A stretch of DNA of 18,211 nucleotides. It comes from Bacillota bacterium. GTDB taxonomy: Bacteria > Bacillota_A > Clostridia > DSM-8532. The translations under genes and the position numbers were made by a program. The notes under the pieces were generated by a model. The model had not been told where the DNA came from. It saw only the letters and a program-made list of their open reading frames with translations, and did no database searches. Below are positions 1 through 13,537 of the stretch, in pieces (positions within the stretch are counted from its first letter, which is position 1; each line of letters opens with the position of its first letter). Where the stretch lies: NCBI GenBank assembly GCA_023424865.1, contig JAFADM010000042.1, forward strand, positions 1 to 18,211, given 5' to 3'.

Positions 1-2
1 TA

Positions 3-1847
3 CGGCTGTCGCTGCGGTTTGAAAACCGATCCCCGGAGGCGGTACCCTATTCCGTGTTTAAGGCTGGCCTGCGTTTAAAAGGAATTCATGAGGGGAATGT
101 AACGATTCCTCACAATATCTATAACGACAATCCTTCCGCCGATCCCGCGCGGATTGTTCCTCATATCGGAAAGGCCGAAGGGGGAGGCCTCCTTGTTGAG
201 GAGCACCGCCTTCCCATCCCCGGAGTGAATGCCGAATGGGAGGAGTCGGGAGAAAGCCGTTATGTAACGCTCTTTTCAGTACCCGCAATTAGAGACGGCG
301 AGGACAGCGAATACTGGTCCCTGGGTGTTATGCGTGAAGGCGGACTTCACCTTATGTCCTTAAGCGGGCCAACCCTTTTTAACGGGGTTAAGGATATGGT
401 CTACGCCGGGAAAAACGCTTTTATTCCTTTTGAGCGGGGCTATAAAAACCTGGAGCCCGGAGAAGCTTATGAAAAGGAATTCCTTATCGATTTTGGGTTT
501 ACGGAAAAGGGGAGAGGCTTTCGGAGCCTTGTGCAAAAGGGCTGGGAGCTTTACCGGCCTGAAAGCCGTCCCGCCCTCTCACTTAATACACTTATACTCC
601 TTAAGTCCAACTGCCTGGATACAAGGTATCACATGGATGGGGAAGCCAAAGGGTATCTGACCTTCGGATCCGCCAATGCCTTCGGTAATCGTTCCGGGCG
701 TCCGGATTATTTCCTGTACGGCTGGACGGGAGAAGCCTTGAAGCTGGCCTGGTGCGATATGATGCTGGGACTTTCCTCCAATTGTTCCCAGCGCATGGAT
801 AAAGCCGTGGCTACTGTCGCCTTTTACCTGGAAAACGGTGAAAATGAAAAAAGGCCCGGTATGCGCTGCGGTTATTATCTGGTCGGAGAAAAAGCCTGGA
901 GAGGCGGGGGATGGGACGATAAGGAGTATTTTTCCTCCCGCATTCAGGGAGAAGCCCTCTATGACAGCCTGGACTTTCTGCTTCTTATGCGAAAGCTGGG
1001 CTTAGCCGTGCCCCCTCCTTGGGAAGAGGCCATAAAACGCGGGCTTTCCTTTGTCATGTCCGCGGATTCCCAGAATTCAAAAGGACTTTACCCTCTTTTG
1101 TGGAACAGCCTGGGTCAGCCTGTGGGGGACGACGTCAATTCAGCGGGGATAAGCTGTATCATAGCCCTTTTAAAGGCCTATACCTATTTCGGTGAGGATA
1201 GCTATCTGGATTATGCCAAGCTTAAGCTGGCCCTTTATTATGACTGTCAGGTAAAGGATTTTGCCTACCCCTTTTCCAGAGCTACCATGGATGCCCGGTG
1301 CGAGGATAAGGAGGCGGGAATGTTTTTCTTCCTGGCAGCCTACGAGATGTTTAAAATAACCGGGGATGCGGTATACAGGGAATGGGCGGAGGTGTCGGCG
1401 GACTGGATACTGACCTTTGTCTATTTTTGGGAGACGGGTTTTAAAAAAGACAGCTATTACCGGCAGAAGGCTTTTAAAACCACGGGCTGGCCCGGCGTCA
1501 GTGTGCAGAACCATCACCTGGACGTTTTTTTTCCTTGCTATGAGATGTATGATTTTGGTCTCATTACCAATAACCCTCTTTATATCCATATGGGAAAAAC
1601 CGTGTTCAACGCTTTTTCCCACGGCATTTGCACCCAAAAGGGCGAATGGGGCTTTGATGTATTGGGGGAGCAAACGGAGCAGTTTTATCAGACCAATTTC
1701 TTTATGAGCAATTACCCGGATCTGCTTTACTGGGTTAAGGAGTGGCGACGGGGTATAAGGCTGTGGAATCCGTCCTGGATTATCGCCCAGGTTTTAAAGC
1801 CGGCTGTTGAGTTCAGGGAAATCGGCGTGAGAACAAAGGAAGGATAG
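3..1847 (+). CDS. Glycosidase-like (alpha/alpha)6 toroid protein, 5'-truncated
   Basis: The reading frame is open to the left edge, so the gene begins outside the window; the GTG at position 54 is internal. The visible 614 residues fall into two parts. Residues 1 to about 180 are beta-rich and look like an N-terminal beta-sandwich. About 190-605 consist of repeated aromatic-rich helical pairs, the pattern of a six-hairpin glycosidase toroid. Notable stretches are YLTFGSANAFGNRSGRPDY (about 218-236), an acidic segment TMDARCEDKEAG (about 425) and QNHHLDVFFP (about 500). A glycan-cleaving role is inferred from fold and neighbours; I cannot name a GH family, and catalytic residues are not assigned. 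The next gene starts 12 bp downstream. Whether there is a signal peptide cannot be seen. Confidence 0.75.
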   Translation, partial: RLSLRFENRSPEAVPYSVFKAGLRLKGIHEGNVTIPHNIYNDNPSADPARIVPHIGKAEGGGLLVEEHRLPIPGVNAEWEESGESRYVTLFSVPAIRDGEDSEYWSLGVMREGGLHLMSLSGPTLFNGVKDMVYAGKNAFIPFERGYKNLEPGEAYEKEFLIDFGFTEKGRGFRSLVQKGWELYRPESRPALSLNTLILLKSNCLDTRYHMDGEAKGYLTFGSANAFGNRSGRPDYFLYGWTGEALKLAWCDMMLGLSSNCSQRMDKAVATVAFYLENGENEKRPGMRCGYYLVGEKAWRGGGWDDKEYFSSRIQGEALYDSLDFLLLMRKLGLAVPPPWEEAIKRGLSFVMSADSQNSKGLYPLLWNSLGQPVGDDVNSAGISCIIALLKAYTYFGEDSYLDYAKLKLALYYDCQVKDFAYPFSRATMDARCEDKEAGMFFFLAAYEMFKITGDAVYREWAEVSADWILTFVYFWETGFKKDSYYRQKAFKTTGWPGVSVQNHHLDVFFPCYEMYDFGLITNNPLYIHMGKTVFNAFSHGICTQKGEWGFDVLGEQTEQFYQTNFFMSNYPDLLYWVKEWRRGIRLWNPSWIIAQVLKPAVEFREIGVRTKEG

Positions 1848-1859
1848 GGGAATGCTTCA

Positions 1860-3968
1860 ATGATAGAAAAATTAGCCTACAGGAACAGATGCCTTCGAAC
1901 CAAAACAGGCAAGCTTCTGTTCGGACCCACAGGAAGACGGCTTTTTGCCGATTATCTGGATAAAAAGCCCGGCTTCTCGGGACGAATTGATTTTATACAT
2001 AAAATTAACCTTACATCCCTCTTTACCGTCGATTGCAGCGCCGATTGCGACTTTGAAACCGCCGAAGCCGTATGGTATGCGGACAGACTGACCCTGTGCC
2101 TTGTAAGCGGGGGCATAGCCTTTTCCGAAACCAAGTTTATTACGGAAAACGATTGTGCTGTTTCCTGCCAGTATTGGGAAAACAATACCTCGCAGCCCGT
2201 TTCCCTTTCCCTGGAGGTTGGGGCCGACCTTTGCACAAAGGAAAAGGATGTGAAAACCGGAGCCCGGATGCTTATAACACCCTCAAGCCGTCACGGGTAC
2301 AGGACAGGAGCCGCCGTTAAATCGGATATCCAGCTTGAACAGAACCCTCTCATTGTAAAACCCGGCCAGAGCGTGACCTTTACCGTGGTGGCCGCCGTGG
2401 GAAATCTGGAACAGGAGCCTCTGTCCAGAATTGCCGAGAAGGCCGAGCAGTTCTTTAAAAACGGTGTGGATTATACCGAGAGGCAAAGAGCGGAGTATGA
2501 GGCCTTTTTTGACCATGCTCCCCGGTTCAGCTCCAGCAGTGAGATATTAAATACAACATGGGCCTACCGGTGGTTTCTGCTGCGCCATAATCTGGCCTTT
2601 CCGGATATGGGGAACCTTCAGGGTGCGGTGATGTACGAAGGCCGATCCCATAAAATGAAAAAGGACCCCTTAAATCCGTCAGGATGGGAATTCAGCAAGC
2701 TTATCAACCTGTCCACCCCCCTTCACCTTACCGATTTCAGGTGGTACGGAAAAAAGGAATACCTTTACGATATGGTCAGAAACATGATCCGCAATCTTGA
2801 CGAAAACGGCATTTTCTGCTCGGCGACAGTGGGGGAAAAGCTCCATTCCTACGCCAATTACGGCGTTTACGGAATTTATAAGCTCTGGCAAACCGACGGC
2901 AACACGGAGTTTATAAAAGAAATTATGCCCGACATAAAAAAGTATGTCCACCGTGAAACAAAGGTGTACAGCAGAGGCGACAACCTCCAGATTGAGATTA
3001 AGCACAACCGTACGGGCAAGGAATATCAGCCCAGCTACTGGTATTTTCATAACTTCCCCCACAATCCCAAGGAGCCTCAGACCTATACCCCTTTAAAACG
3101 GGTGGATCGTTCGGTGTACCACTACCTTAACGTCATGGGAGCCGCTTATCTGTGCGAGGCGGTGGGAGATGACGACGGCCGCATGTTTCTGGATATCGGA
3201 GAAGAGATTAAAAGGGACATACTCAAAAAGATGTGGGACAAGGATACGGAATTCTTTTATGATGTGCATCATGAGACCGATGAAAAGGCGTATGTGAAGA
3301 ATATCGTGGGCGTTTATCCCTACTGGGCGGACATTACGGGCAGGGAGCATCTTCCTGGGCTGGAGCTTTTATTTGATAACCGGTATTTCAACACCGGATG
3401 CCCTTTTCCCTCCGTCGCCAGGGACTGCCAGGTATACAGCCCCATGGGAAGCTGGAACGGAAATTATATCAAGGGCAGGGACGGATGTGTCTGGTGCGGC
3501 CCCTCCTGGCCTTACACCACCTGTATCGCACTTGACGCCATAGGCAAACAGAGCCGGAAAAACAACCATGTCTATGACAGCGAGTTTATCCACTATTTGA
3601 AGGAATACTCCCTCCAGCACTACAGGGACAGGGATCTCAAACGACCCTACATGGTGGAGCATTATAATGCGGAAACAGGGGAACCCTTAAGCGATGATGT
3701 GGATTATAACCATTCCTATTACATTGATTTAATCATCACCTATGTTGCGGGTGTGGAGATAACGGAAAAAGGGCTGGCCTTCAATCCCCTGGACTGCGGT
3801 CTTAATTACTTTGAACTGGATCGTCTGTCCGTCAGGGGGGATACCTATGCCGTAACCTACCGAAGGCCTGGCTGTGAGGACGTTTCCTGCTCACATATCC
3901 TGGAAGGCTACACGGTTTATAAAAACGGTGAGATTCTGTTAAGCAGGAAGCAGGGGACAGAGGCTTGA
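1860..3968 (+). CDS. Glycoside hydrolase-like protein (GH63/MGH1-like toroid)
   Basis: This 702-residue protein appears to have a beta-sandwich N-terminal domain (about 1-185), a helical linker (about 190-222), an (alpha/alpha)6 toroid (about 225-635) and a small beta-rich tail. GPSWPYTT at 547-554 and the EHYNAETGEP segment at 600-609 resemble signatures shared by GH63, MGH1-like and trehalase-type toroid hydrolases, so hydrolysis of a glycosidic bond is likely. The substrate is not readable. The N-terminus (MIEKLAYRNR) has no signal peptide, which points to cytoplasmic action on imported oligosaccharide. The ATG at 1860 follows an AGGGG ribosome site by about 9 nt and starts 12 bp after the previous stop, so the two are cotranscribed. 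A second toroid protein next door suggests successive removal of different sugars from one chain. Confidence 0.78.
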   Translation: MIEKLAYRNRCLRTKTGKLLFGPTGRRLFADYLDKKPGFSGRIDFIHKINLTSLFTVDCSADCDFETAEAVWYADRLTLCLVSGGIAFSETKFITENDCAVSCQYWENNTSQPVSLSLEVGADLCTKEKDVKTGARMLITPSSRHGYRTGAAVKSDIQLEQNPLIVKPGQSVTFTVVAAVGNLEQEPLSRIAEKAEQFFKNGVDYTERQRAEYEAFFDHAPRFSSSSEILNTTWAYRWFLLRHNLAFPDMGNLQGAVMYEGRSHKMKKDPLNPSGWEFSKLINLSTPLHLTDFRWYGKKEYLYDMVRNMIRNLDENGIFCSATVGEKLHSYANYGVYGIYKLWQTDGNTEFIKEIMPDIKKYVHRETKVYSRGDNLQIEIKHNRTGKEYQPSYWYFHNFPHNPKEPQTYTPLKRVDRSVYHYLNVMGAAYLCEAVGDDDGRMFLDIGEEIKRDILKKMWDKDTEFFYDVHHETDEKAYVKNIVGVYPYWADITGREHLPGLELLFDNRYFNTGCPFPSVARDCQVYSPMGSWNGNYIKGRDGCVWCGPSWPYTTCIALDAIGKQSRKNNHVYDSEFIHYLKEYSLQHYRDRDLKRPYMVEHYNAETGEPLSDDVDYNHSYYIDLIITYVAGVEITEKGLAFNPLDCGLNYFELDRLSVRGDTYAVTYRRPGCEDVSCSHILEGYTVYKNGEILLSRKQGTEA

Positions 3969-3988: not shown

Positions 3989-6289
3989 TTGTGGATGAAA
4001 AATATAAAAGCCAACGGTTTTTTCGTACCGATTGTTATTTCCTTTGCCATTATCTGCCTGATTATGCTGCTTGGCGTGTCGGTCAGCTACCTGCGCAGCA
4101 CAAGGGTTGTTAAAAGCAATATTGAAAACTACAATACGAGCATCGTCATGCAGATAAAATCCGCCATAGACAGCGGTATCGACAACGCCGTACAGAAGCT
4201 TTACGACTACTGCTACGACAAGCGGATTAATGAATACGCGGGGATGGAAAATTTTTACGATCCCGAGACCATTATGACATCCCTGGATATTATCAATATG
4301 AGCAGCACCGTATGTCTGACCAATAAATATCTGACGGATATTTTTGTTTATTCGGATCGTACGGGAATTGTGGTCAACAGGACGACGTATTACAAGGCAG
4401 AGGACTTTTACAGGGAAAAAATGGGCTCCTTTGGGCTGTCTGAGGAAGAATGGGACTCGGTTCTCCATTCCTACTCCAATTTCAAGTTCTTTATTTCCAG
4501 GGGTCCCAATGAAAACATCCTTGTTTTAAAGGCCATAACAAGAGGCGTTAATGAAAACGTGGTGGCCGTTGTCGGAGTTATGATTGACGGGGCTGAGCTG
4601 AGCAGTATTTTAAAGGTTCAGGGCACGGTCAATGGAATGAACACCTATATTCTGGATGACAGCGGCGGGGTGGTAGCCTATTCGGGGGCTCCGCCTCAGG
4701 AGAAAATCAGCTTGCCCGCCTCGAGCAAAACCTCCGGGCCGGGCCTGTATTATGCAGAAATTGACGGCGTTCCGTCCCTGGTAACCTATGTCCTGTCGGC
4801 CTATAACGGGCTCCATTATGTTGGCGTGGTTCCCTCCAGCATCATTATGACGGATCTCAACTATATCCGGACCATGACCCTGATTATTATTATCCTCTTT
4901 ATTCTTGCGGTTGCGTTTCTGTCCGTCTATATCAATAAAAAGGCTTACGGGCCTGTAAAAAACTTTATCGCCCGTATAAAGGGTTCCGTCTCCAACAGCG
5001 ATGCGGATAATGATTTTTCGGGCATTGTGGAAAACCTGGAGCGCTCTCTTAAGGAGAAGGAGGACATAAAAAAGAATATTAACGATCTGTTCCCCATTAT
5101 TAAAAACAATATTTTGCTTTCCCTTGTCAGTGAGGAACGGGATGAGGGGAATTTAAGCGATCTGGAAACCTACAATATCCGTTTTAAGTACAATGCCTTT
5201 GTGCTTCTTATTATTGAAATAGAGGATGCAAACCAGTTTATAACCGGCACGGATCATGAGGAAAAGGCTCTTTTAAAGTTCACCATAAACAATATCGGGC
5301 AGGATATTTTCAGTGTCCTGGGAGATATTTGCCCTGTGGAGTACAGCAATGACAAAATAGTGTTCATCCTGAACTTCGACAAAAACCAGAAAAACGCCGA
5401 AGAGCTGATACAAAACTGTGCGGAAGAAATTCTGAAGGTTCTGAAAAATTTGTTTTCTCTAACCATTACCATCGGCATCAGCAACAGCGGCACAAGGCTG
5501 AGCTGCTTAAGCGATTTGTGCCGTGAGGCTGAGGAAGCCCTTGCCTATAAGTTCTTAAACGGTATCAATACGGTTAACCGGTTTCAGAATATTGAATTCA
5601 ACGCAAGCGAATATTTTTATCCTGTTTATATGGAGTACAAGCTCATCAACAGCGTAACGGTGGGCAATGAAAAGCAGGCGCTGGATATTTTAGAGGAAAT
5701 ATTTGTAAACAACTTTAAAAAGAACAGCCACCCCATAAAATATTCCCGATGCCTTTTTTTCGATATTATCAGCACGGTGCTGAAGATGTCCAACGAGCTG
5801 AAAATTGATTTGGACAATGTCTTTCATACGGGCTTCAATATTGAGAAGGAATTGATAGATTGCCAGACCGTGGATGAAATGTATACCGTAATCCGTCAAA
5901 TTATCGTCGAAATATGCCGGTTTGTGAACAACCGGACCAAGAGCAAAAACGACGAGCTCTTAAACAGCATAATGGAGCATATCGGCAGGAATTACACCAA
6001 CGAGCAGATTTGCATTGCCTCCATTGCCGATGCGGTGACCATCACCCAGAATTACCTTTCCCATTACTTTAAAGAAAAAGCGGGAATTCCGGTTATGAAA
6101 TACATTGAGTCCCTGCGAATTGCCAGGGCCAAGGAGCTGCTTTTAGAATCGGACAAAACACTGGATGCCATTACCAGAGAAATTGGCTTTTCCAACAGCG
6201 CCGTGTTCATCCGGGCATTTAAGAAAAATGAAGGCATTACACCGGGCCAGTTCAGGGAAAAAAACCCGGAAGACCCGGCATACCCATGA
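3989..6289 (+). CDS. Membrane-anchored AraC-family sensor-regulator
   Basis: One polypeptide joins an extracellular sensor to a DNA-binding domain. Residues about 12-35 form a first membrane helix and 36-293 an extracellular region of the Cache-like type. Residues 295-316 form a second membrane helix. About 375-535 is a cytoplasmic domain resembling a degenerate GGDEF-like module, and 661-757 is a two-helix-turn-helix AraC domain with the typical ending EIGFSNSAVFIRAFKKNEG-TPGQFRE. It probably senses a sugar ligand outside the cell and activates the surrounding operon; ligand and operator are unknown. The start is uncertain: TTG at 3989 lies 5 nt after AGAAGG (3978-3983), and ATG at 3995 lies 11 nt after it. 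It begins 20 bp after the preceding gene with no terminator between, so it is embedded in the operon. Confidence 0.88.
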   Translation: MWMKNIKANGFFVPIVISFAIICLIMLLGVSVSYLRSTRVVKSNIENYNTSIVMQIKSAIDSGIDNAVQKLYDYCYDKRINEYAGMENFYDPETIMTSLDIINMSSTVCLTNKYLTDIFVYSDRTGIVVNRTTYYKAEDFYREKMGSFGLSEEEWDSVLHSYSNFKFFISRGPNENILVLKAITRGVNENVVAVVGVMIDGAELSSILKVQGTVNGMNTYILDDSGGVVAYSGAPPQEKISLPASSKTSGPGLYYAEIDGVPSLVTYVLSAYNGLHYVGVVPSSIIMTDLNYIRTMTLIIIILFILAVAFLSVYINKKAYGPVKNFIARIKGSVSNSDADNDFSGIVENLERSLKEKEDIKKNINDLFPIIKNNILLSLVSEERDEGNLSDLETYNIRFKYNAFVLLIIEIEDANQFITGTDHEEKALLKFTINNIGQDIFSVLGDICPVEYSNDKIVFILNFDKNQKNAEELIQNCAEEILKVLKNLFSLTITIGISNSGTRLSCLSDLCREAEEALAYKFLNGINTVNRFQNIEFNASEYFYPVYMEYKLINSVTVGNEKQALDILEEIFVNNFKKNSHPIKYSRCLFFDIISTVLKMSNELKIDLDNVFHTGFNIEKELIDCQTVDEMYTVIRQIIVEICRFVNNRTKSKNDELLNSIMEHIGRNYTNEQICIASIADAVTITQNYLSHYFKEKAGIPVMKYIESLRIARAKELLLESDKTLDAITREIGFSNSAVFIRAFKKNEGITPGQFREKNPEDPAYP

Positions 6290-6325: not shown

Positions 6326-7585
6326 ATGAGGCTTGTCATTCTGGCAGATGATTTTACGGGAGCAATGGATACTGCCGTAAGGTTTTCAAAATGCAACATC
6401 CCTACATATGTCTTTGTCCGTCACGAGCCTGTGCTGGAGTCCTGGCCCGAGGAAGCGGGTGAGCATGAGGTGGTGGTTGTCAATATGAACTGCCGCCATA
6501 TGCACAAGGACAGGGTCTATGATATGGTATGCGCCTTGTGGCGGCGGCTTTCATTAAACCGGTGCCACCTGTACATTAAAACAGATTCCGCGCTGAGGGG
6601 GAATATTGAGGCCGCGTACGAGGCTGTCCGGGATATGTGCCAAAAGCCCATTCTGTTTGTACCTGCCTTTCCCGAATCAGGCCGAACAACTGTTGACGGA
6701 AAGCAATACGTCAACGGTTCACTTTTAGAGGAGTCGGTTTTTGCCAGGGACCCGCGAAATCCCATGACAAACAGTCAGGTTGCCGCCATTATTAATACCA
6801 GGGGAAGCCTTAAAATTAAACAGGTTTCCATGGACGGGCTTTCGGAATTCAAGGATGGGAGCGGTTATGACGTTATTGTCTTTGATTGTGATTCGCAGGA
6901 GCACATGGTTAAAATCGGGGCCGCTTTAAAGGAGAGGAACCTCCTTTCTGTTACAAGCGGCTGTGCCGGCTTTGCCGCTGTCCTGCCGGGACTTCTGCCT
7001 CTTACCCTCAGGGAGCCCCAGGCTTTAAAGGTCAGGGAATCCACTCTTGTTTTTTGCGGAACGGCAAATGCCGTCAGCTTTGCTCAGCTTGAGAGAGCCC
7101 GTCACTCCGGTGCCCGACTGTTTATGGTTACGCCCGTCATGCTTATTTCAGAGGATTGGTCGGGGCTTTTGGAGCAGCTTGCACAAGAGGCTGTACGACA
7201 GATGGCGTCCGGCGTGCCTTTTATTGTCTGTACCGCGGAAAAAGAGGAGGATATTCAATGGTCCAATGCCTTCTGGCAGCAGACGGGTATGTCCAGGGAC
7301 GGGCTGCACCATCGCATTTACCGGTTTTTCAGCCTCCTGTCCGCATCACTTATGGACCGTTACGCGGTAGGCACCCTGGGCATTATCGGCGGGGATATGT
7401 GCGAGGCGGTGCTGGACGGCCTGAAAATCAGCCACGTTGTGGCGCAAAATGAGATTGAGGCGGGGATTCCCGTTAGTATGGCCAGCTATAGGGGCAGACC
7501 CTTTCGGCTTATTACAAAGTCAGGGGGGCTTGGCTCGCAGGAGGCCATCATAAATATGACCCAAATAGAAGGAGAGCAGGTATGA
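6326..7585 (+). CDS. Four-carbon acid-sugar kinase (DUF1537 family; D-threonate/D-erythronate kinase-like)
   Basis: The 419-residue length and the two-domain layout match the DUF1537 kinases. The N-terminal acid-sugar binding motif LADDFTGAMD is at 6-15, KTDSALRGN at 85-93 and PAFPESGRTTVDG at 113-125. The C-terminal nucleotide-binding half carries GIIGGDM at 352-358 and TKSGGLG at 397-403. Members phosphorylate the 4-hydroxyl of tetronates with ATP. Pairing with a PdxA-type dehydrogenase, as here, is known from the D-threonate and D-erythronate pathways; the 3-oxotetronate kinases instead pair with OtnC aldolase, which is absent. The ATG is preceded by GGGGAG with 8 nt spacing. Its stop overlaps the next start by 4 bp (ATGA), indicating translational coupling. 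A dtnK-like role is the best guess, but the stereochemistry of the substrate is not readable from sequence. Confidence 0.88.
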   Translation: MRLVILADDFTGAMDTAVRFSKCNIPTYVFVRHEPVLESWPEEAGEHEVVVVNMNCRHMHKDRVYDMVCALWRRLSLNRCHLYIKTDSALRGNIEAAYEAVRDMCQKPILFVPAFPESGRTTVDGKQYVNGSLLEESVFARDPRNPMTNSQVAAIINTRGSLKIKQVSMDGLSEFKDGSGYDVIVFDCDSQEHMVKIGAALKERNLLSVTSGCAGFAAVLPGLLPLTLREPQALKVRESTLVFCGTANAVSFAQLERARHSGARLFMVTPVMLISEDWSGLLEQLAQEAVRQMASGVPFIVCTAEKEEDIQWSNAFWQQTGMSRDGLHHRIYRFFSLLSASLMDRYAVGTLGIIGGDMCEAVLDGLKISHVVAQNEIEAGIPVSMASYRGRPFRLITKSGGLGSQEAIINMTQIEGEQV

Positions 7586-8544
7586 TAGGTATTACCATGG
7601 GCGACGGCAATGGCGTCGGCCCGGAAATTATTCTGAAAGCTGTAAGAGACGGTAAAATACAGGGCGATTATGTTGTTCTTGGTGATTTTTCCGTTATGGA
7701 TTACTGCAACGGCAGACTTGGGTACCGGGTGCCCTTAAAGGGGATCAAAAACCTCAGTGAGAGGCAGAGTGATTTTTTGAATGTACTTGACGAGGGCCTT
7801 CTAACTAAGGAGGACATTACGCCCGGGAGGATTTCCGAAAAGGTGGCGGCTGCTTCCAGAGCCTATGTGGTGAGAGCGACAAAAATGTGTCTTGACGGAA
7901 GCCTTAGCGCCATGACCACCCTGCCGGTGAACAAGGAAGCCATACGCCTGAGTGATCCTGGCTTTACCGGCCATACGGAGCTTATTGCCGAGCTTTGCCG
8001 TCAGGATTCCTATACCATGATGCTGGCTTCGGAGAAGCTTACCGTAACCCATGTCAGCACCCATGTATCCCTTGAGGATGCCATAAGAAGTGTAAAAAAG
8101 GATCGGATTCTCGATGTAATTGAGCTGACTCACAATGCCCTGAGCCGCTTTATTAAAGAACCGCGAATCGCCGTGGCCGGCCTCAATCCCCATGCGGGGG
8201 AGGGCGGCGCGTTCGGAACCCAGGAAAAGGACGAGATCCGGCCGGCGGTGGAAGAGGCTGTCGCCCGGGGGCTTTTATGCACAGGCCCGGTAGCTCCGGA
8301 CACTGTTTTTTTGAAAGCGGCCAGGGGCGGCTTTGACGCGGTTGTGTGCATGTATCACGATCAGGGGCATATTCCCATGAAGTTACTTGATTTTGACGGT
8401 GGTGTCAATGTTTCCTTAGGACTGGAGGCTGTGAGAACCAGCGTGGATCACGGCACCGCTTTTGATATCGCTTATCAGGGAAAAGCCGCAGATCAAAGCT
8501 TTGTTGCTGCCTATAACTATGCACTTAAAATACAACGCACTTAA
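7582..8544 (+). CDS. pdxA: PdxA/PdxA2-family 4-phospho-hydroxy-acid dehydrogenase
   Basis: PdxA-fold NAD-dependent dehydrogenase of 320 residues, the usual family length. It carries MGDGNGVGPEI at 6-16, GHTE at 130-133 and all three metal-ligand histidines in their normal contexts: H161 (STHVSL), H204 (NPHAGEGG) and H259 (MYHDQGHIP). It also has VRTSVDHGTAFDIA at 284-297. True PdxA makes the pyridoxal precursor. Placed directly after a DUF1537 kinase with an overlapping start, this copy is more likely the catabolic PdxA2 type, which oxidises 4-phospho-threonate or -erythronate at C3 so that it decarboxylates to dihydroxyacetone phosphate. No other vitamin B6 gene is nearby. The gene end contains a tandem 16-bp duplication that includes its last codons. 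Confidence 0.87.
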   Translation: MIGITMGDGNGVGPEIILKAVRDGKIQGDYVVLGDFSVMDYCNGRLGYRVPLKGIKNLSERQSDFLNVLDEGLLTKEDITPGRISEKVAAASRAYVVRATKMCLDGSLSAMTTLPVNKEAIRLSDPGFTGHTELIAELCRQDSYTMMLASEKLTVTHVSTHVSLEDAIRSVKKDRILDVIELTHNALSRFIKEPRIAVAGLNPHAGEGGAFGTQEKDEIRPAVEEAVARGLLCTGPVAPDTVFLKAARGGFDAVVCMYHDQGHIPMKLLDFDGGVNVSLGLEAVRTSVDHGTAFDIAYQGKAADQSFVAAYNYALKIQRT

Positions 8545-8568
8545 AATACACCGCATTTAAAATTCAGC
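8521..8568 (+). repeat. Three-copy 16-bp tandem repeat at the pdxA 3' end
   Basis: The units are 8521-8536 (GCACTTAAAATACAAC), 8537-8552 (one mismatch) and 8553-8568 (three mismatches against copy 2). Copy 1 is coding and copy 2 contains the TAA stop at 8542-8544. Copy 3 is untranslated and abuts the ribosome site of the next gene. The divergence increases downstream, which fits an older duplication by replication slippage. No function is evident. Confidence 0.85.
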
Positions 8569-8585
8569 TGAAGGAGGAAAACGAA

Positions 8586-9473
8586 ATGTATAAGCCATTT
8601 GGCGTACTTCCGGCCATGACCACCCCCATGACGGCCGCGGAGGAGGTCAGCGAGGAGCTGCTGCGAAGCGAGGTCAGGCGCTTTCTAAAATCAAAGGTTC
8701 ACGGTCTGTTCTGTCTTGGGACCAACGGTGAATTTTATGCCCTTTCGAGGGATGAAAAAATAAGGGTAATGGAAATTGTCGTAGACGAGGCAGGGGGAAG
8801 GCTGCCGGTTTGCGCAGGAGTGGGCGCCGTGACCACAAAAGAGACGGTGGCTCTAGCTGAGGCAGCCCAGCAAATCGGCGTTGACGCGCTTTCGGTGATT
8901 ACCCCCTATTTCGGGCAGGTGACGGAAGGGGAGCTCATTAGCCATTACAAGGCCGTGGCCTCAAGCGTGGATATTGGCATCATTCTCTACAATATTCCTG
9001 CCAGAACAGGCTGCGCCATCAGCAGAAAGGCCGTGAGCACCCTGGCGGGAGTAAAAAATATTGTGGGGATTAAGGATTCAAGCGGAAATTTCGATACGAT
9101 TCTTCAGTACCTGGAGGTGACAGAAAGGCAATTTCCCGTCCTCTCGGGCAACGATTCCCTTATACTGTATACCCTCATGGCCGGAGGGTGCGGCGGAGTT
9201 GCCGGAACCGGAAATCTGTTTCCCAATAAAATGTCGGATATTTACAACCTGTTTCAGGCGGGAGAGCTTGATAAGGCACGTGAGATACAGGACGGCATCC
9301 GCTTTATACGGGACTGCTTTTACCTTGGAAACCCCAATTCCGTGGTGAAACGTGCCGTGAACCTTCTGGGCATTGAAGCGGGACCGGTAAGAAGTCCCTT
9401 TGGCGGGGATTACACTCAATGGGATCCGGTTTTGCGAAATGTCATGGAAAAGCATTATAAGGACTGGAATTAG
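8586..9473 (+). CDS. DapA/NanA-family Schiff-base aldolase
   Basis: Class I lyase of the dihydrodipicolinate synthase/N-acetylneuraminate lyase superfamily, 295 residues in a TIM barrel. The Schiff-base lysine is K163 (GIKDSSGN) and the catalytic tyrosine is Y135 in YNIPARTG. The pyruvate loop reads GTNGEF at 45-50, where lysine-pathway DapA normally has GTTGE, so a second threonine is replaced by asparagine. R140 matches the carboxylate-binding arginine of DapA. A sugar-acid role is therefore more likely than lysine synthesis: retro-aldol cleavage of a 2-keto-3-deoxy acid to pyruvate plus an aldehyde. The position between an acid-sugar kinase/dehydrogenase pair and an alcohol dehydrogenase supports this. 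AAGGAGG at 8571-8577, 8 nt upstream, fixes the ATG. Automatic annotation would probably call it dapA. Confidence 0.85.
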   Translation: MYKPFGVLPAMTTPMTAAEEVSEELLRSEVRRFLKSKVHGLFCLGTNGEFYALSRDEKIRVMEIVVDEAGGRLPVCAGVGAVTTKETVALAEAAQQIGVDALSVITPYFGQVTEGELISHYKAVASSVDIGIILYNIPARTGCAISRKAVSTLAGVKNIVGIKDSSGNFDTILQYLEVTERQFPVLSGNDSLILYTLMAGGCGGVAGTGNLFPNKMSDIYNLFQAGELDKAREIQDGIRFIRDCFYLGNPNSVVKRAVNLLGIEAGPVRSPFGGDYTQWDPVLRNVMEKHYKDWN

Positions 9474-9482
9474 GAGGGCAAA

Positions 9483-10643
9483 ATGGCAATCGGTACAAAT
9501 TTAAATATTCTCCATCTGCCCCGGAAGGTTGTTTCGGGCAGGGGCAGCTTTTCTAAGCTTTCGGAGCATATCCGGAGTGATGCTGTAAAAAAGATACTTA
9601 TTATCACAGATAAAACCATTGAAACACTGGGGCACAGCGGCAGGCTAAAGGACAGTCTTGCCCGGGACGGCTATTCCGTCGACGTTTTTTCGGATATAAA
9701 GTCCGAGCCTACCGTAGCCCTTATAAAAACCGTCTGTGCAAACGACGATTATATGGGAGCGGATCTTATTCTTGCCGTAGGCGGAGGAAGCGTTATCGAT
9801 ACGGCTAAAATTGCCGCTGCTGCGGCGAAAAACCCCGAATTCAGGCAAAATCCCACCGATGGAGGGCTTATAAAGGCAAAGGGATTAACGCTCGTTGCCG
9901 TTCCCACAACGGCGGGCACCGGGGCCGAGGCCACTCCCAACGCTATTTTGCTGGATGAGGAGGCAAAAACAAAGCTTGGAGTGGTAAATCCGCTGATGAT
10001 ACCGGATCTGGTAGTTTTGGACTGCACGCTCACCGAATCCCTTCCAAGGCATGTGGCCGTATCCACGGGCCTGGACGCCCTAGCTCACGCACTTGAGAGC
10101 TATTTGTCCAAAAAGGCCAACGGATTTACGGATATGTTCGGCCTTCAGGCTATGAGGCTTATTTTCGGCAACCTGGCGGAGGCCTGTGAGGGGGATAATC
10201 CCGATGCGCGCCAGAACATGCTTATGGCCTCCTTTTATGCCGGGATATGCCTGGTAGGAGCATCCACCCATATCGTTCATGCCATGGCATACCCCCTTTC
10301 GGGCGAGTACCATGTGCCTCACGGCGTCGGCATTGCGGCACTGCTCCCGCCGGTGATTGAGAAGCTTCAGGACACCTGCAGCGCCCGCCTGTGCGAAGCA
10401 GCCGAAAGCCTGTGGCATAAAAGCTTTGAGTGTGAAAAGCAAGGCGCTGCCTTTTTTGTAAACGCCTTAAAAGCCCTTGCCCAAAGGCTGGAGGCTGTTT
10501 ATTCCATGGCAAAATACGGCGTTACGGAGGATCGGCTTTTGGAGATGGCCCTGGATGCCCGGAAAAATGAACGGCTGTTTCTTCAGGCGCCTGTGGCTAT
10601 GGATGCAGAGACACTGGCATCCATTTACAGGCAGATTCTATAA
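9483..10643 (+). CDS. Iron-containing alcohol dehydrogenase
   Basis: Group III (Fe-type) NAD(P)-dependent alcohol dehydrogenase of 386 residues. The nucleotide-binding GGGSVID is at 100-106 and PTTAGTGAEAT at 141-151. All four metal ligands are present: D198 and H202 in GLDALAHALE, and H266 and H280 in the HAMAYPLSGEYHVPHG segment. These enzymes are usually cytoplasmic aldehyde reductases in fermenting bacteria. Directly after an aldolase, it probably reduces the released aldehyde, regenerating NAD+. In the pathway proposed here it would reduce a four-carbon aldehyde-acid to threonate or erythronate. The start is 9 bp after the upstream stop, and the AGGAGGG ribosome site at 9472-9478 overlaps that stop codon, so the two are tightly coupled. 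Confidence 0.9.
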   Translation: MAIGTNLNILHLPRKVVSGRGSFSKLSEHIRSDAVKKILIITDKTIETLGHSGRLKDSLARDGYSVDVFSDIKSEPTVALIKTVCANDDYMGADLILAVGGGSVIDTAKIAAAAAKNPEFRQNPTDGGLIKAKGLTLVAVPTTAGTGAEATPNAILLDEEAKTKLGVVNPLMIPDLVVLDCTLTESLPRHVAVSTGLDALAHALESYLSKKANGFTDMFGLQAMRLIFGNLAEACEGDNPDARQNMLMASFYAGICLVGASTHIVHAMAYPLSGEYHVPHGVGIAALLPPVIEKLQDTCSARLCEAAESLWHKSFECEKQGAAFFVNALKALAQRLEAVYSMAKYGVTEDRLLEMALDARKNERLFLQAPVAMDAETLASIYRQIL

Positions 10644-10778: not shown

Positions 10779-10827
10779 TTTTCAGCTATAAGGTAATAAG
10801 TTATATTGTAATTGCTTTATAGCAATT
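10779..10827 (+). promoter_or_regulatory. Possible internal promoter with operator-like inverted repeat
   Basis: TTTTCA at 10779-10784 and TATATT at 10802-10807 are separated by 17 bp, a plausible if imperfect sigma-A promoter. A perfect 6-bp inverted repeat AATTGC-TTTATA-GCAATT at 10810-10827 lies over the expected transcription start and could be an operator. The 224-bp gap from 10644 to 10867 is A/T-rich, unlike the tight spacing elsewhere in the operon. No terminator is visible in it, so the downstream gene may be both cotranscribed and separately expressed. Confidence 0.4.
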
Positions 10828-10867: not shown

Positions 10868-12721
10868 ATGAATTATAGGGAAACCATTGTAAGCCAGAAC
10901 AACCTACGATGCCATAATACTGAAAAAGCAGATATCCGGTTTGGGGACGGCGGACTTCGGCACGCGGTGGGTGCGTGTAACTACCAAATCGTAAGGTCTG
11001 CCAAAAACACATCGCTCTCTCCCGAAGGGCGCGGCTGGACTTACAACCATGCCTCCATGCTGGTTTACTGGAAGGAGCATTTCCTTGTTGAATACTTGGC
11101 AGGTCCTGCCGGTGAGCATGAGCCTCCGTCCGCCGTTTTTTTATGCCGTTCGGCCAACGGGAGAGACTGGAACAGCCCAAAAGAGCTCTTTCCTCCGGCT
11201 TCGGTAAGCAAAGCTCCCTATAAAGGGCCTGGAAAGGAACTCATTCAGGGTGAGGAAACGCCGTGTATTGTGCATCACCGGATGGGCTTTTTTGTTACCG
11301 CCGACGGAAGGCTTCTGGCCTCAACCTTTTATGGTATCAGCCCAAACTGCCATATCAGTCCCAACAATGGCTATGGTGTTGGCAGGGTTGTGAGGGAAAT
11401 TAGAGAAGATTTTTCATTTGGGCCCATTTTCTTCTTGAAGTATAATCTTCCAGGAGGTTACAATAGGAATAATACCAGTCATTTTCCGTTCTACCTGGAA
11501 AGTGAGGACAAGGGTTTTGTGGAAGCCTGCAACGAATTTCTGAGCCACAGGCTGGCAACCCTGCAATGGCAGGAGGAGGAATGCTTTGATGAATCCTTTA
11601 CACTGCCCCGCGGCGGAAAGGCTTTCGGCTGGTATACCCTCCCTGGCGGTGATGTGATGGGCTTTTTTAAAAACGCCATGACAAGCCTGAGCAGGGACGG
11701 AGGCGAAACCTGGAGTGAGCTTGAAAAGGCTTATTCCATTGAAACCTCAACAGGTAAAATGTGGAGCCAAAAAACCGGTGACGGCCGTTATGCGCTGGTG
11801 TACAATCCCACCACGGACAGCGCTCACCGATGGCCTTTGGCAGTGGTGACAGGGGATAACGGGATTGATTTTGACAATCTCCTGACCATTACTCCGGAGG
11901 TGTCGCCCTGCCGTTATGAGGGAAAGCTTAAAAACCTTGGCCCTCAGTATGTCCGGGGCATAACCGAAAACAATCCCCAGCCGGAGGACGGTGCTCTGTG
12001 GCTGACCTACAGCGTTAACAAAGAGGATATCTGGGTCTGCCGGGTTCCTGTTCCCATTACAGGACAGGAAACGGAAAATGTCAGAGAGGATTTTAGTGCT
12101 TCAGCTCCGGAAGGACCGGCAGAGGGATGGAACCTTTATGTGCCCAAATGGGGTGAAGCCCGGGTGAAGGCCTATCCTTCGGACAACGACAAAAGCCTGT
12201 ATCTGACAGATTGGGATCCTTACAACCGGGTGCTGGCGGAACGGATGTTTGCCCCGGGAGTACTCATTAAGGCAGAGTTTCGGCTGATGGTGAAAAAACC
12301 GGAGGGAGAAAAGAGTGTGGCTGTATTTCTCCAGGATCGCCACGGCGCAGCTCCCGTGAGTCTGCTGTTTTCTTCAGACGGCGGCCTGTATCTGCGCTCG
12401 GGCGGCCTTAATAAGAGGATTTGCGCTTGTGCCTGCGAAGCCTGGCTTGATGTTTCGGTTACCGCAGACTGCGTCAAAAACAGGGTTGTCGTAACTGTTT
12501 CCTCGGAGGCAGAAACGACCGAAAAGAGCTTTGATTTTGCTCAATCCGTGCATATGCTGGAGAGAATCGTTTTTACCACAAAATACACGCTGCCCTTCCA
12601 GGACCTTGAGATAAACGGAAGAAACGGAGATATCGGCATTCTGCCTCAAGCCGATGCTCCCCATGCCAAAACCGAATGCTATATCAACACTCTGCGGGTG
12701 GACACCCTTGAAAAGGAGTAA
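10868..12721 (+). CDS. Sialidase-like beta-propeller protein with C-terminal beta-sandwich
   Basis: The start is set at the ATG at 10868 because GGAGG at 10855-10859 sits 8 nt upstream; an earlier in-frame GTG at 10826 has no such site. The 617-residue product has an N-terminal beta-propeller (about 20-400) with a canonical Asp-box SRDGGETW at 275-282 and a degenerate one around SANGRDW. GPQYVRGI at 358-365 and LWLTYSVNKEDIW near 377-389 recur, as I recall, in uncharacterised sialidase-like propellers of environmental glycan degraders. From about 406 it is beta-rich and looks like a lectin-like sandwich. No signal peptide is present, so it probably acts in the cytoplasm. It may be a glycosidase or lyase; a true sialidase is unproven because the usual arginine triad was not assigned. 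It is the last gene before the terminator. Confidence 0.78.
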   Translation: MNYRETIVSQNNLRCHNTEKADIRFGDGGLRHAVGACNYQIVRSAKNTSLSPEGRGWTYNHASMLVYWKEHFLVEYLAGPAGEHEPPSAVFLCRSANGRDWNSPKELFPPASVSKAPYKGPGKELIQGEETPCIVHHRMGFFVTADGRLLASTFYGISPNCHISPNNGYGVGRVVREIREDFSFGPIFFLKYNLPGGYNRNNTSHFPFYLESEDKGFVEACNEFLSHRLATLQWQEEECFDESFTLPRGGKAFGWYTLPGGDVMGFFKNAMTSLSRDGGETWSELEKAYSIETSTGKMWSQKTGDGRYALVYNPTTDSAHRWPLAVVTGDNGIDFDNLLTITPEVSPCRYEGKLKNLGPQYVRGITENNPQPEDGALWLTYSVNKEDIWVCRVPVPITGQETENVREDFSASAPEGPAEGWNLYVPKWGEARVKAYPSDNDKSLYLTDWDPYNRVLAERMFAPGVLIKAEFRLMVKKPEGEKSVAVFLQDRHGAAPVSLLFSSDGGLYLRSGGLNKRICACACEAWLDVSVTADCVKNRVVVTVSSEAETTEKSFDFAQSVHMLERIVFTTKYTLPFQDLEINGRNGDIGILPQADAPHAKTECYINTLRVDTLEKE

Positions 12722-13078: not shown

Positions 13079-13537
13079 ATGATAAGTACGAATTTGCATA
13101 TGCTTAGAAAAATAAACAAATACACTCAGGAAGAGGTCGCGGAAAAAATAAACGTCTCCCGTCAGGCGGTTGCAAAATGGGAAAACGGCGATAGCCTTCC
13201 GGATATCGCTAACTGCATTGCGTTAGCAAAATTATACGATGTAAGCCTGGATAATCTGGTTAATGAAGGTGACGAAACCGATGCGCACCTTATTCCTCCC
13301 AAAGGCAAGCATATTTTCGGAACGGTCACGGTGGGGGAACGAGGTCAAATCGTTATCCCCAAAAAGGCCCGGGAGGTATTTCAATTTAGCCCGGGGGATA
13401 GCCTGATGATACTTGGGGACGAGGCCCTTGGAGGCATTGCCATATTAAAAACAGAGCTATTTATGCAAAATATGGAACCCTTAATGGATGCCATCCTCCG
13501 ACCGGTCAAAAATGAAGGACAAGTAAAAAATGAATAG
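13079..13537 (+). CDS. XRE-family regulator fused to a SpoVT/AbrB domain
   Basis: A 152-residue cytoplasmic DNA-binding protein with two DNA-binding modules. Residues 7-60 are a Cro/C1-type helix-turn-helix; the recognition region VSRQAVAKWENGDSLPD at 26-42 is very typical. Residues 83-125 are an AbrB swapped-hairpin domain with VGERGQIVIPKKARE at 85-99. AbrB domains dimerise, so the protein probably binds as a dimer or tetramer. The ATG has GGAG at 13067-13070, 8 nt upstream. It is followed 12 bp later by a hydrolase gene and preceded by a promoter containing a palindrome. It likely controls its own two-gene operon. The signal it responds to is unknown. Confidence 0.9.
   Translation: MISTNLHMLRKINKYTQEEVAEKINVSRQAVAKWENGDSLPDIANCIALAKLYDVSLDNLVNEGDETDAHLIPPKGKHIFGTVTVGERGQIVIPKKAREVFQFSPGDSLMILGDEALGGIAILKTELFMQNMEPLMDAILRPVKNEGQVKNE

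Follow-up and report, generated by a model that had tools for sequence, protein, structure and literature searches.

A predicted catabolic route for the plant sugar acid Dha in a four-gene cluster that recurs in GH143-positive bacterial genomes

Contig JAFADM010000042.1 of a Bacillota bacterium (assembly GCA_023424865.1) carries, within the stretch of 18,211 nucleotides analyzed here (the window), four adjacent genes for a DUF1537 kinase, a PdxA-type dehydrogenase, an aldolase of the dihydrodipicolinate synthase (DHDPS) superfamily and an iron-type alcohol dehydrogenase (Fe-ADH). We propose, with a probability of roughly 0.8, that this cluster encodes a catabolic route for 3-deoxy-D-lyxo-heptulosaric acid (Dha), which would be a new pathway built from known enzyme types, with activities and substrate predicted from sequence and genome context. 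We favor this reading because the four genes recur together with genes of glycoside hydrolase family 143 (GH143) in five phyla, because their domains are intact and because the stereochemistry fits. Enzymes that release Dha are already known. The earlier note on this DNA knew of no dedicated pathway for its breakdown, and none was found in the open-access literature either, a body of work outside which lie subscription journals as well as the 2016 DUF1537 and 2017 rhamnogalacturonan II (RG-II) papers. By our reasoning, we also know of no other RG-II sugar that fits all four steps. In plants, Dha is known only from RG-II, according to the accessible part of PMC12168206.

The proposed route from Dha to pyruvate and dihydroxyacetone phosphate

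The tight succession of the four genes described in the earlier note is borne out by the positions of the open reading frames (ORFs) and by Pfam, in which all four proteins exceed the cut-offs of their families (SBD_N and NBD_C of DUF1537, PdxA, DHDPS and Fe-ADH). The kinase and PdxA ORFs overlap by 4 bases, 41 bases separate PdxA from the aldolase gene and 9 bases separate the latter from the dehydrogenase gene. Families of window proteins were assigned throughout with Pfam and NCBIfam profile models, ten window proteins being scanned with Pfam.

In the proposed route, a GH143-like enzyme encoded downstream would, judging by homology, free Dha, which the DapA-like class I aldolase would split into pyruvate and 2,3-dihydroxy-4-oxobutanoate (C7H10O8 = C3H4O3 + C4H6O5). 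The Fe-type dehydrogenase would reduce this C4 aldehyde acid to D-threonate, the DUF1537 kinase would convert D-threonate to its 4-phosphate and the PdxA2-type enzyme would oxidize the latter to dihydroxyacetone phosphate (DHAP) and CO2. Members of the DUF1537 kinase and PdxA2 families convert D-threonate to the 4-phosphate and on to DHAP with loss of CO2. The net reaction would be Dha + ATP to pyruvate + DHAP + CO2, and with one reduction and one oxidation the route would be redox-neutral if the two dehydrogenases share a cofactor. The Fischer-projection argument by which the earlier note arrived at D-threonate holds: Dha has the D-lyxo configuration at C4-C6, cleavage between C3 and C4 eliminates the C4 center, and after reduction of the aldehyde and turning of the projection the remaining centers stand with C2 to the left and C3 to the right, which is D-threonate. 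A D-xylo substrate yields D-threonate as well, and consequently the kinase step does not fix the configuration at C4.

Parts of this route have counterparts in described systems. D-threonate catabolism by DtnK and PdxA2 was reportedly described by Zhang et al. (PNAS, 2016). The window resembles that system in its adjacent DUF1537 kinase and PdxA2-type genes and in ending at DHAP, but it has two further enzymes, an aldolase and an aldehyde reductase, through which a C7 ulosaric acid would yield D-threonate intracellularly. The accessible part of PMC10971088 likewise assigns D-threonate catabolism to the DUF1537 kinase DtnK together with PdxA2. The D-glucarate/galactarate pathway (GarL or GudL, GarR, GarK) shares retro-aldol cleavage to pyruvate and a semialdehyde acid, followed by reduction and phosphorylation. 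However, that pathway uses a C6 acid, glycerate and a glycerate kinase, whereas the window would use a C7 acid, a tetronate and the DUF1537 and PdxA pair, and it does not display the hallmarks of GudL, a DapA-like aldolase of Bacillota (PMC11775122, accessible part). Sialic acid catabolism (sialidase, NanA) is also similar in that a sialidase-fold hydrolase is combined with a DHDPS-superfamily lyase acting on an ulosonic-type acid, and a DUF386 gene occurs in one relative of the cluster; it differs in the sugar acid and in the downstream steps.

Recurrence of the cluster with GH143

A GH143-alignment scan of representative genomes gave at least 571 confirmed relatives, and the best 80 loci, each of at most 21.8 kb, were used (loci and genomes are cited by our L and G labels). 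Six of these 80 hold GH143 together with all four genes (L001, L006, L057, L066, L071 and L075), and tblastn matched one or more of the four in 12 further loci, with distant dehydrogenases among these matches. Fifty hand-picked genomes, those behind 50 of the 80 loci, were surveyed as whole genomes. The surroundings of all DUF1537 hits were compared with the cluster proteins by tblastn, and four genes within 15 kb were scored as a full cluster, a DUF1537-centered design that would miss clusters whose kinase lies elsewhere. A DUF1537 domain is present in 39 of the 50 genomes and the full cluster in 25, which include Bacillota, Bacteroidota and Verrucomicrobiota as well as a Spirochaetaceae bacterium and a Planctomycetota bacterium. 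Gene order within the cluster varies among lineages. Recurrence of the same four families in this many GH143 genomes indicates that their grouping is not a product of chance.

Evenly drawn samples, each carrying the group name of its center genome, were also searched for GH143 (PF24067) and DUF1537 (PF07005), and all DUF1537 neighborhoods were read. Strong GH143 matches (E<1e-40, a threshold chosen after the match list had been seen) occur in 11 of the 194 genomes of the Verrucomicrobiota sample and weaker ones in 13 more, the best of the latter being G400 at 4e-24. The cluster occurs in 10 of the 11 strong-GH143 genomes (9 of 10 without the center) versus none of the 183 others, giving a Fisher value of 1e-14 without the center; this and the following Fisher tests assume independence between genomes, which does not hold for related ones. 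GH143 lies within the same 20-kb stretch in all ten of these clusters, center included, and eight of the nine non-center clusters have the order dehydrogenase, aldolase, kinase, pdxA, GH143. The Bacteroidia sample (n=198) contains nine GH143-positive genomes, and the four genomes with DUF1537 all fall within those nine (p=4e-5 without the center).

Enzyme identities and competing readings

The highest scoring NCBIfam model for the window kinase is D-threonate kinase (NF047819; 173 bits, short of its cut-off of 450), as it is for the kinase of one Bacteroidota cluster, and the protein has the two-domain DUF1537 architecture of DtnK (SBD_N plus NBD_C). Its nearest PDB entries, 4xfm and 4xgj (81 bits), are labelled only "uncharacterized protein". 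For PdxA, the PDB ranking is led by 2hi1, titled "...dehydrogenase 2", and 6e85, titled "D-threonate 4-phosphate dehydrogenase" (260 bits each), followed by 4jqp (244 bits) and 1ps6 (189 bits), so that among solved structures the window protein is nearer to PdxA2 than to the vitamin B6 PdxA. It misses the NF002891 equivalog model (292 bits, cut-off 583) and passes the general TIGR00557 model (346 bits, cut-off 290). The alcohol dehydrogenase has lactaldehyde reductase as its highest scoring NCBIfam model (252 bits, short of its cut-off of 523). A vitamin B6 role for the cluster PdxA fits worse. PdxJ, which works with PdxA in making vitamin B6, is missing from all 11 Bacillota and Spirochaetota cluster genomes tested, and all 4 of the others have it, with the reservation that many of these genomes are metagenome-assembled and may be incomplete, and the PDB ranking favors PdxA2.

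The aldolase retains Tyr135 and the Schiff-base Lys163, so the key motif that the earlier note called intact is indeed present. It also retains Arg140, which corresponds to Arg138 of E. coli DapA. The description of this enzyme as DapA/NanA-type stands as far as the DHDPS family is concerned and needs a small correction on the NanA side, with the dapA model TIGR00674 (216.5 bits, cut-off 206.15) scoring above two N-acetylneuraminate lyase models (160.7 and 137.2 bits). Passing the dapA cut-off would suit an enzyme of the lysine pathway, or a GudL-type 5-keto-4-deoxyglucarate aldolase, that sits in the cluster by chance, and in two of 15 cluster genomes (G027 and G031) we saw no better DapA than the cluster aldolase itself. 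In the other 13, however, a separate gene outscores the cluster aldolase on the dapA model (301-371 versus 136-248 bits). Additionally, the window enzyme keeps four of the six key DapA residues named in the accessible parts of PMC3188589 and PMC5109050 (Thr44, Thr45, Tyr107, Tyr133, Arg138 and Lys161), with Asn47 at the position of Thr45 and Phe109 at that of Tyr107. As for GudL, the accessible part of PMC11775122 describes an Enterocloster GudL that is DapA-like and complements an E. coli garL knock-out, an example showing that in Bacillota an enzyme of this fold can act on a keto-deoxy aldarate. The same part gives Met110 and Lys194 as hallmarks of the GudL clade; in a positional reading, with GudL itself unaligned, the window aldolase has no Met in residues 103-112 and has Asn189 at the second site. 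We regard a displaced DapA or GudL as the least probable of the explanations considered. In the relatives, the cluster stands apart from lysine and vitamin B6 metabolism.

The arginine deserves comment, as Arg138 of DapA makes contact with the aldehyde partner's carboxylate group (PMC11201819 and PMC3188589, accessible parts). Since the C4 compound predicted here is a dihydroxy counterpart of aspartate semialdehyde, retention of the arginine makes sense for the Bacillota/Spirochaetota type only: the counterpart is found in 16 of 16 such cluster aldolases and in 0 of 22 others, in an alignment that left out the later clusters L201, L203 and L225. A tree splits the cluster aldolases into two types. 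Independent recruitment of these types was considered and not adopted, a single origin relative to E. coli DapA, NanA and YagE not being rejected (approximately unbiased test, p=0.08, long branches).

Several findings weigh against a dedicated Dha route. The arginine was rejected as an explanation of Dha specificity across all clusters, given its absence from the 22 aldolases outside Bacillota and Spirochaetota. The kinase and the dehydrogenase reach none of the listed NCBIfam cut-offs, PdxA passes the general PdxA model only and the aldolase passes as dapA. Half of the surveyed GH143 genomes (25/50) are without a full cluster, nine of them having only the kinase and PdxA together, and GH143 shares the cluster stretch of at most 21.8 kb in just 6 of the 25 cluster genomes, lying farther away or on another contig in 19 (about 13 kb separate it from the kinase in G036). 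Seven of the nine GH143-positive Bacteroidia lack the full cluster, leaving two with the center included (1/8 versus 0/189 without it; p=0.04, which is weak). The Lachnospirales sample (n=146) has the full cluster in 3 of 6 GH143-positive and 4 of 140 negative genomes, with one more partial cluster at a contig end (2/5 versus 4/140 without the center; p=0.014, which is modest). GH143 and DUF1537 occur together only in the center genome of the Planctomycetota sample (n=199), which provides no independent positive, and DUF1537 is absent from G757, the other genome there with a strong GH143 match. GH143-negative genomes, too, have the cluster: those four among 140 in the Lachnospirales sample and a single one (of 197) in the Planctomycetota sample. 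Finally, the GH143-positive Pedobacter sp. Bi126 (L043 and L216) lacks DUF1537, and none of the four genes is present in the two GH143 stretches read.

Some of these findings would be expected if the same chemistry served one or more other 3-deoxy-ulosaric acids that give a tetronate, with GH143 a frequent but non-defining partner. The five clusters in genomes without GH143 (L148, L149, L151, L153 and L225) suit this explanation, the first four also containing a BNR_2 sialidase-like gene, as do the position of GH143 outside the cluster stretch in 19 of the 25 cluster genomes and the convergence of D-xylo and D-lyxo substrates on D-threonate. The constant proximity of GH143 in the Verrucomicrobiota clusters argues in the other direction, and we judge such a substrate unlikely. 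The cluster might instead combine two unrelated functions, with the kinase and PdxA acting on external tetronate and the aldolase and dehydrogenase acting elsewhere, for example in cleavage of 3-deoxy-D-manno-octulosonate (Kdo) or 2-keto-3-deoxygluconate (KDG). Kinase-PdxA pairs without a nearby aldolase and dehydrogenase do exist, in 15 of 40 DUF1537 stretches (L122, L123, L125, L128-L137, L139 and L155) as well as in the nine GH143 genomes mentioned above. Yet the four genes remain clustered in five phyla despite several reorderings, which makes a division of labor of this kind very improbable.

A dedicated Dha route, if correct, would complete the breakdown of RG-II as far as this sugar is concerned and would suggest a physiological source of D-threonate, hence a role for some DUF1537/PdxA2 pairs. 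It would also correct gene names, as curated cut-offs would call the aldolase dapA and the dehydrogenase pdxA, and it would turn the cluster into a genetic marker separating Dha-using RG-II degraders from those that perhaps only cut Dha off. A broader version, in which the Dha route is present in at least five phyla, two deeply separated aldolase subfamilies fill one slot and the BNR_2 proteins of clusters without GH143 constitute a second, unassigned kind of Dha-releasing glycosidase, is tentative and in our estimate has the odds somewhat against it.

Glycosidases, related loci and flanking genes

Seven genes on the same strand, with gaps of at most 41 bases, span the region from the start of the window to position 10643 (Table 1). 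Their order is an uncharacterized-protein gene (3' part), an MGH1-like gene, an AraC-family gene and the four cluster genes, with the GH143-like gene 224 bases further on, a spacing that assumes a start at 10868 while the longest ORF begins at 10826. The AraC-family protein is a possible regulator of the cluster.

Table 1. Features of the window and of related loci (positions refer to the window unless a locus is given)
Feature	Position	Strand	Evidence
Uncharacterized 692-aa protein, 3' gene part	1..1847	+	predicted structure
MGH1-like glycoside hydrolase	1860..3968	+	PF22422 4e-26
AraC-family regulator	3989..6289	+	HTH_18 2.5e-20
DUF1537 kinase, predicted D-threonate 4-kinase (third step)	6326..7585	+	SBD_N 6e-45, NBD_C 9e-19
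PdxA2-type dehydrogenase, predicted D-threonate 4-phosphate dehydrogenase (fourth step)	7582..8544	+	Pfam PdxA 7e-97
DHDPS-superfamily aldolase, predicted Dha aldolase (first step)	8586..9473	+	Pfam DHDPS 1e-71
Fe-type alcohol dehydrogenase, predicted C4-aldehyde reductase (second step)	9483..10643	+	Fe-ADH 1e-42, ADH_Fe_C 9e-45
GH143-like Dha hydrolase candidate	10868..12721	+	Beta-prop_BT_1020 4e-75, Sialidase-like_CBM 4e-17
BNR_2 proteins, 360-390 aa, in or near cluster	L148:1606-2688, L149:11236-12399, L151:4135-5295, L001:8771-9943		
Second DUF1537 + RuBisCO-like loci	L109-L113, L164-L166, L188-L190, L230-L234		

BT1020 of Bacteroides thetaiotaomicron reportedly unites GH142 and GH143 in a single polypeptide (Ndeh et al. 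2017). The window GH143-like protein aligns to residues 15-573 of PDB 5mqr (E=4.7e-114), which we take to be BT1020 and which the PDB listing names beta-L-arabinobiosidase, and it scores 252.8 bits on PF24067 (cut-off 27), in keeping with homology to the N-terminal part of BT1020. It shares with BT1020 the GH143-like propeller and a sialidase-like carbohydrate-binding module region. Its N-terminus, judged by eye, does not look like a signal peptide. The homology to BT1020 makes the protein a candidate Dha hydrolase. In contrast to the fused BT1020, GH143 is a separate protein in the window, and the other half has a relative with PF22422 that is encoded by its own gene in the same row. That relative, the MGH1-like protein, shares PF22422 with the GH142-like half at the C-terminus of a BT1020-like fusion protein and is 20% identical to it over about 600 columns; it gave no PDB sequence match, 5mqr included, and its structure model is too poor for use (pLDDT, the predicted confidence score, of 56.6). 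As a distant relative of the GH142 half, it is a candidate for removal of the terminal arabinose of side chain D. The co-occurrence of the four genes with GH142/GH143 genes that the earlier note proposed as a check was found for GH143 in five phyla, with a strong Verrucomicrobiota control and weaker others; the GH142 side is weaker, the link there being a shared PF22422 domain and an identity of about 20%.

A BNR_2 sialidase-like gene is present in each of the four GH143-negative clusters found in Lachnospirales (L148, L149, L151 and L153), and none was detected in L225. These proteins are possibly a second Dha-releasing enzyme. BNR_2 genes are not specific, since they are also found near GH143 in genomes that lack the cluster, Pedobacter sp. 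Bi126 among them, and the aldolases of L149 and L153 are identical, which means that these two loci are not independent. Carboxylate-type transporters are encoded in four of the five GH143-negative clusters (CitMHS in L151 and L153; TRAP-type DctM plus NMT1-like in L148 and L225) and would fit the import of an ulosaric acid in free form. The DUF386 gene, presumably of the family of the E. coli anomerase NanQ, is in L148.

In 12 of the 50 GH143-positive genomes, and also in sampled Verrucomicrobiota and Bacteroidia, a second DUF1537 type has a RuBisCO-like protein next to it, a pair that we take to be an apiose catabolism module, probably that of RG-II degraders. With this partner accompanying the second type in relatives, the two types appear to have distinct roles. 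An apiose-type role fits the window kinase less well; no RuBisCO domain was found in the ten window proteins scanned. One such pair, L230, comes from a genome with a weaker GH143 match only.

The 692-aa protein at the start of the window has neither a Pfam domain nor a PDB sequence match, and 262 relatives were found among the candidates scored. Its predicted structure (model of P0241; mean pLDDT 88.9) combines a beta-sandwich with an alpha/alpha toroid, and its top fold match by E-value is a polysaccharide lyase (TM-score 0.45). On the basis of this model, it probably belongs to an unassigned carbohydrate-active family. Beyond the GH143-like gene, a helix-turn-helix plus AbrB-like regulator is encoded from 13079-13537 on, followed by an alpha/beta hydrolase gene. 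Farther on, the other strand carries an N-formylglutamate amidohydrolase-like gene and an ABC exporter, which are apparently unrelated to the cluster.

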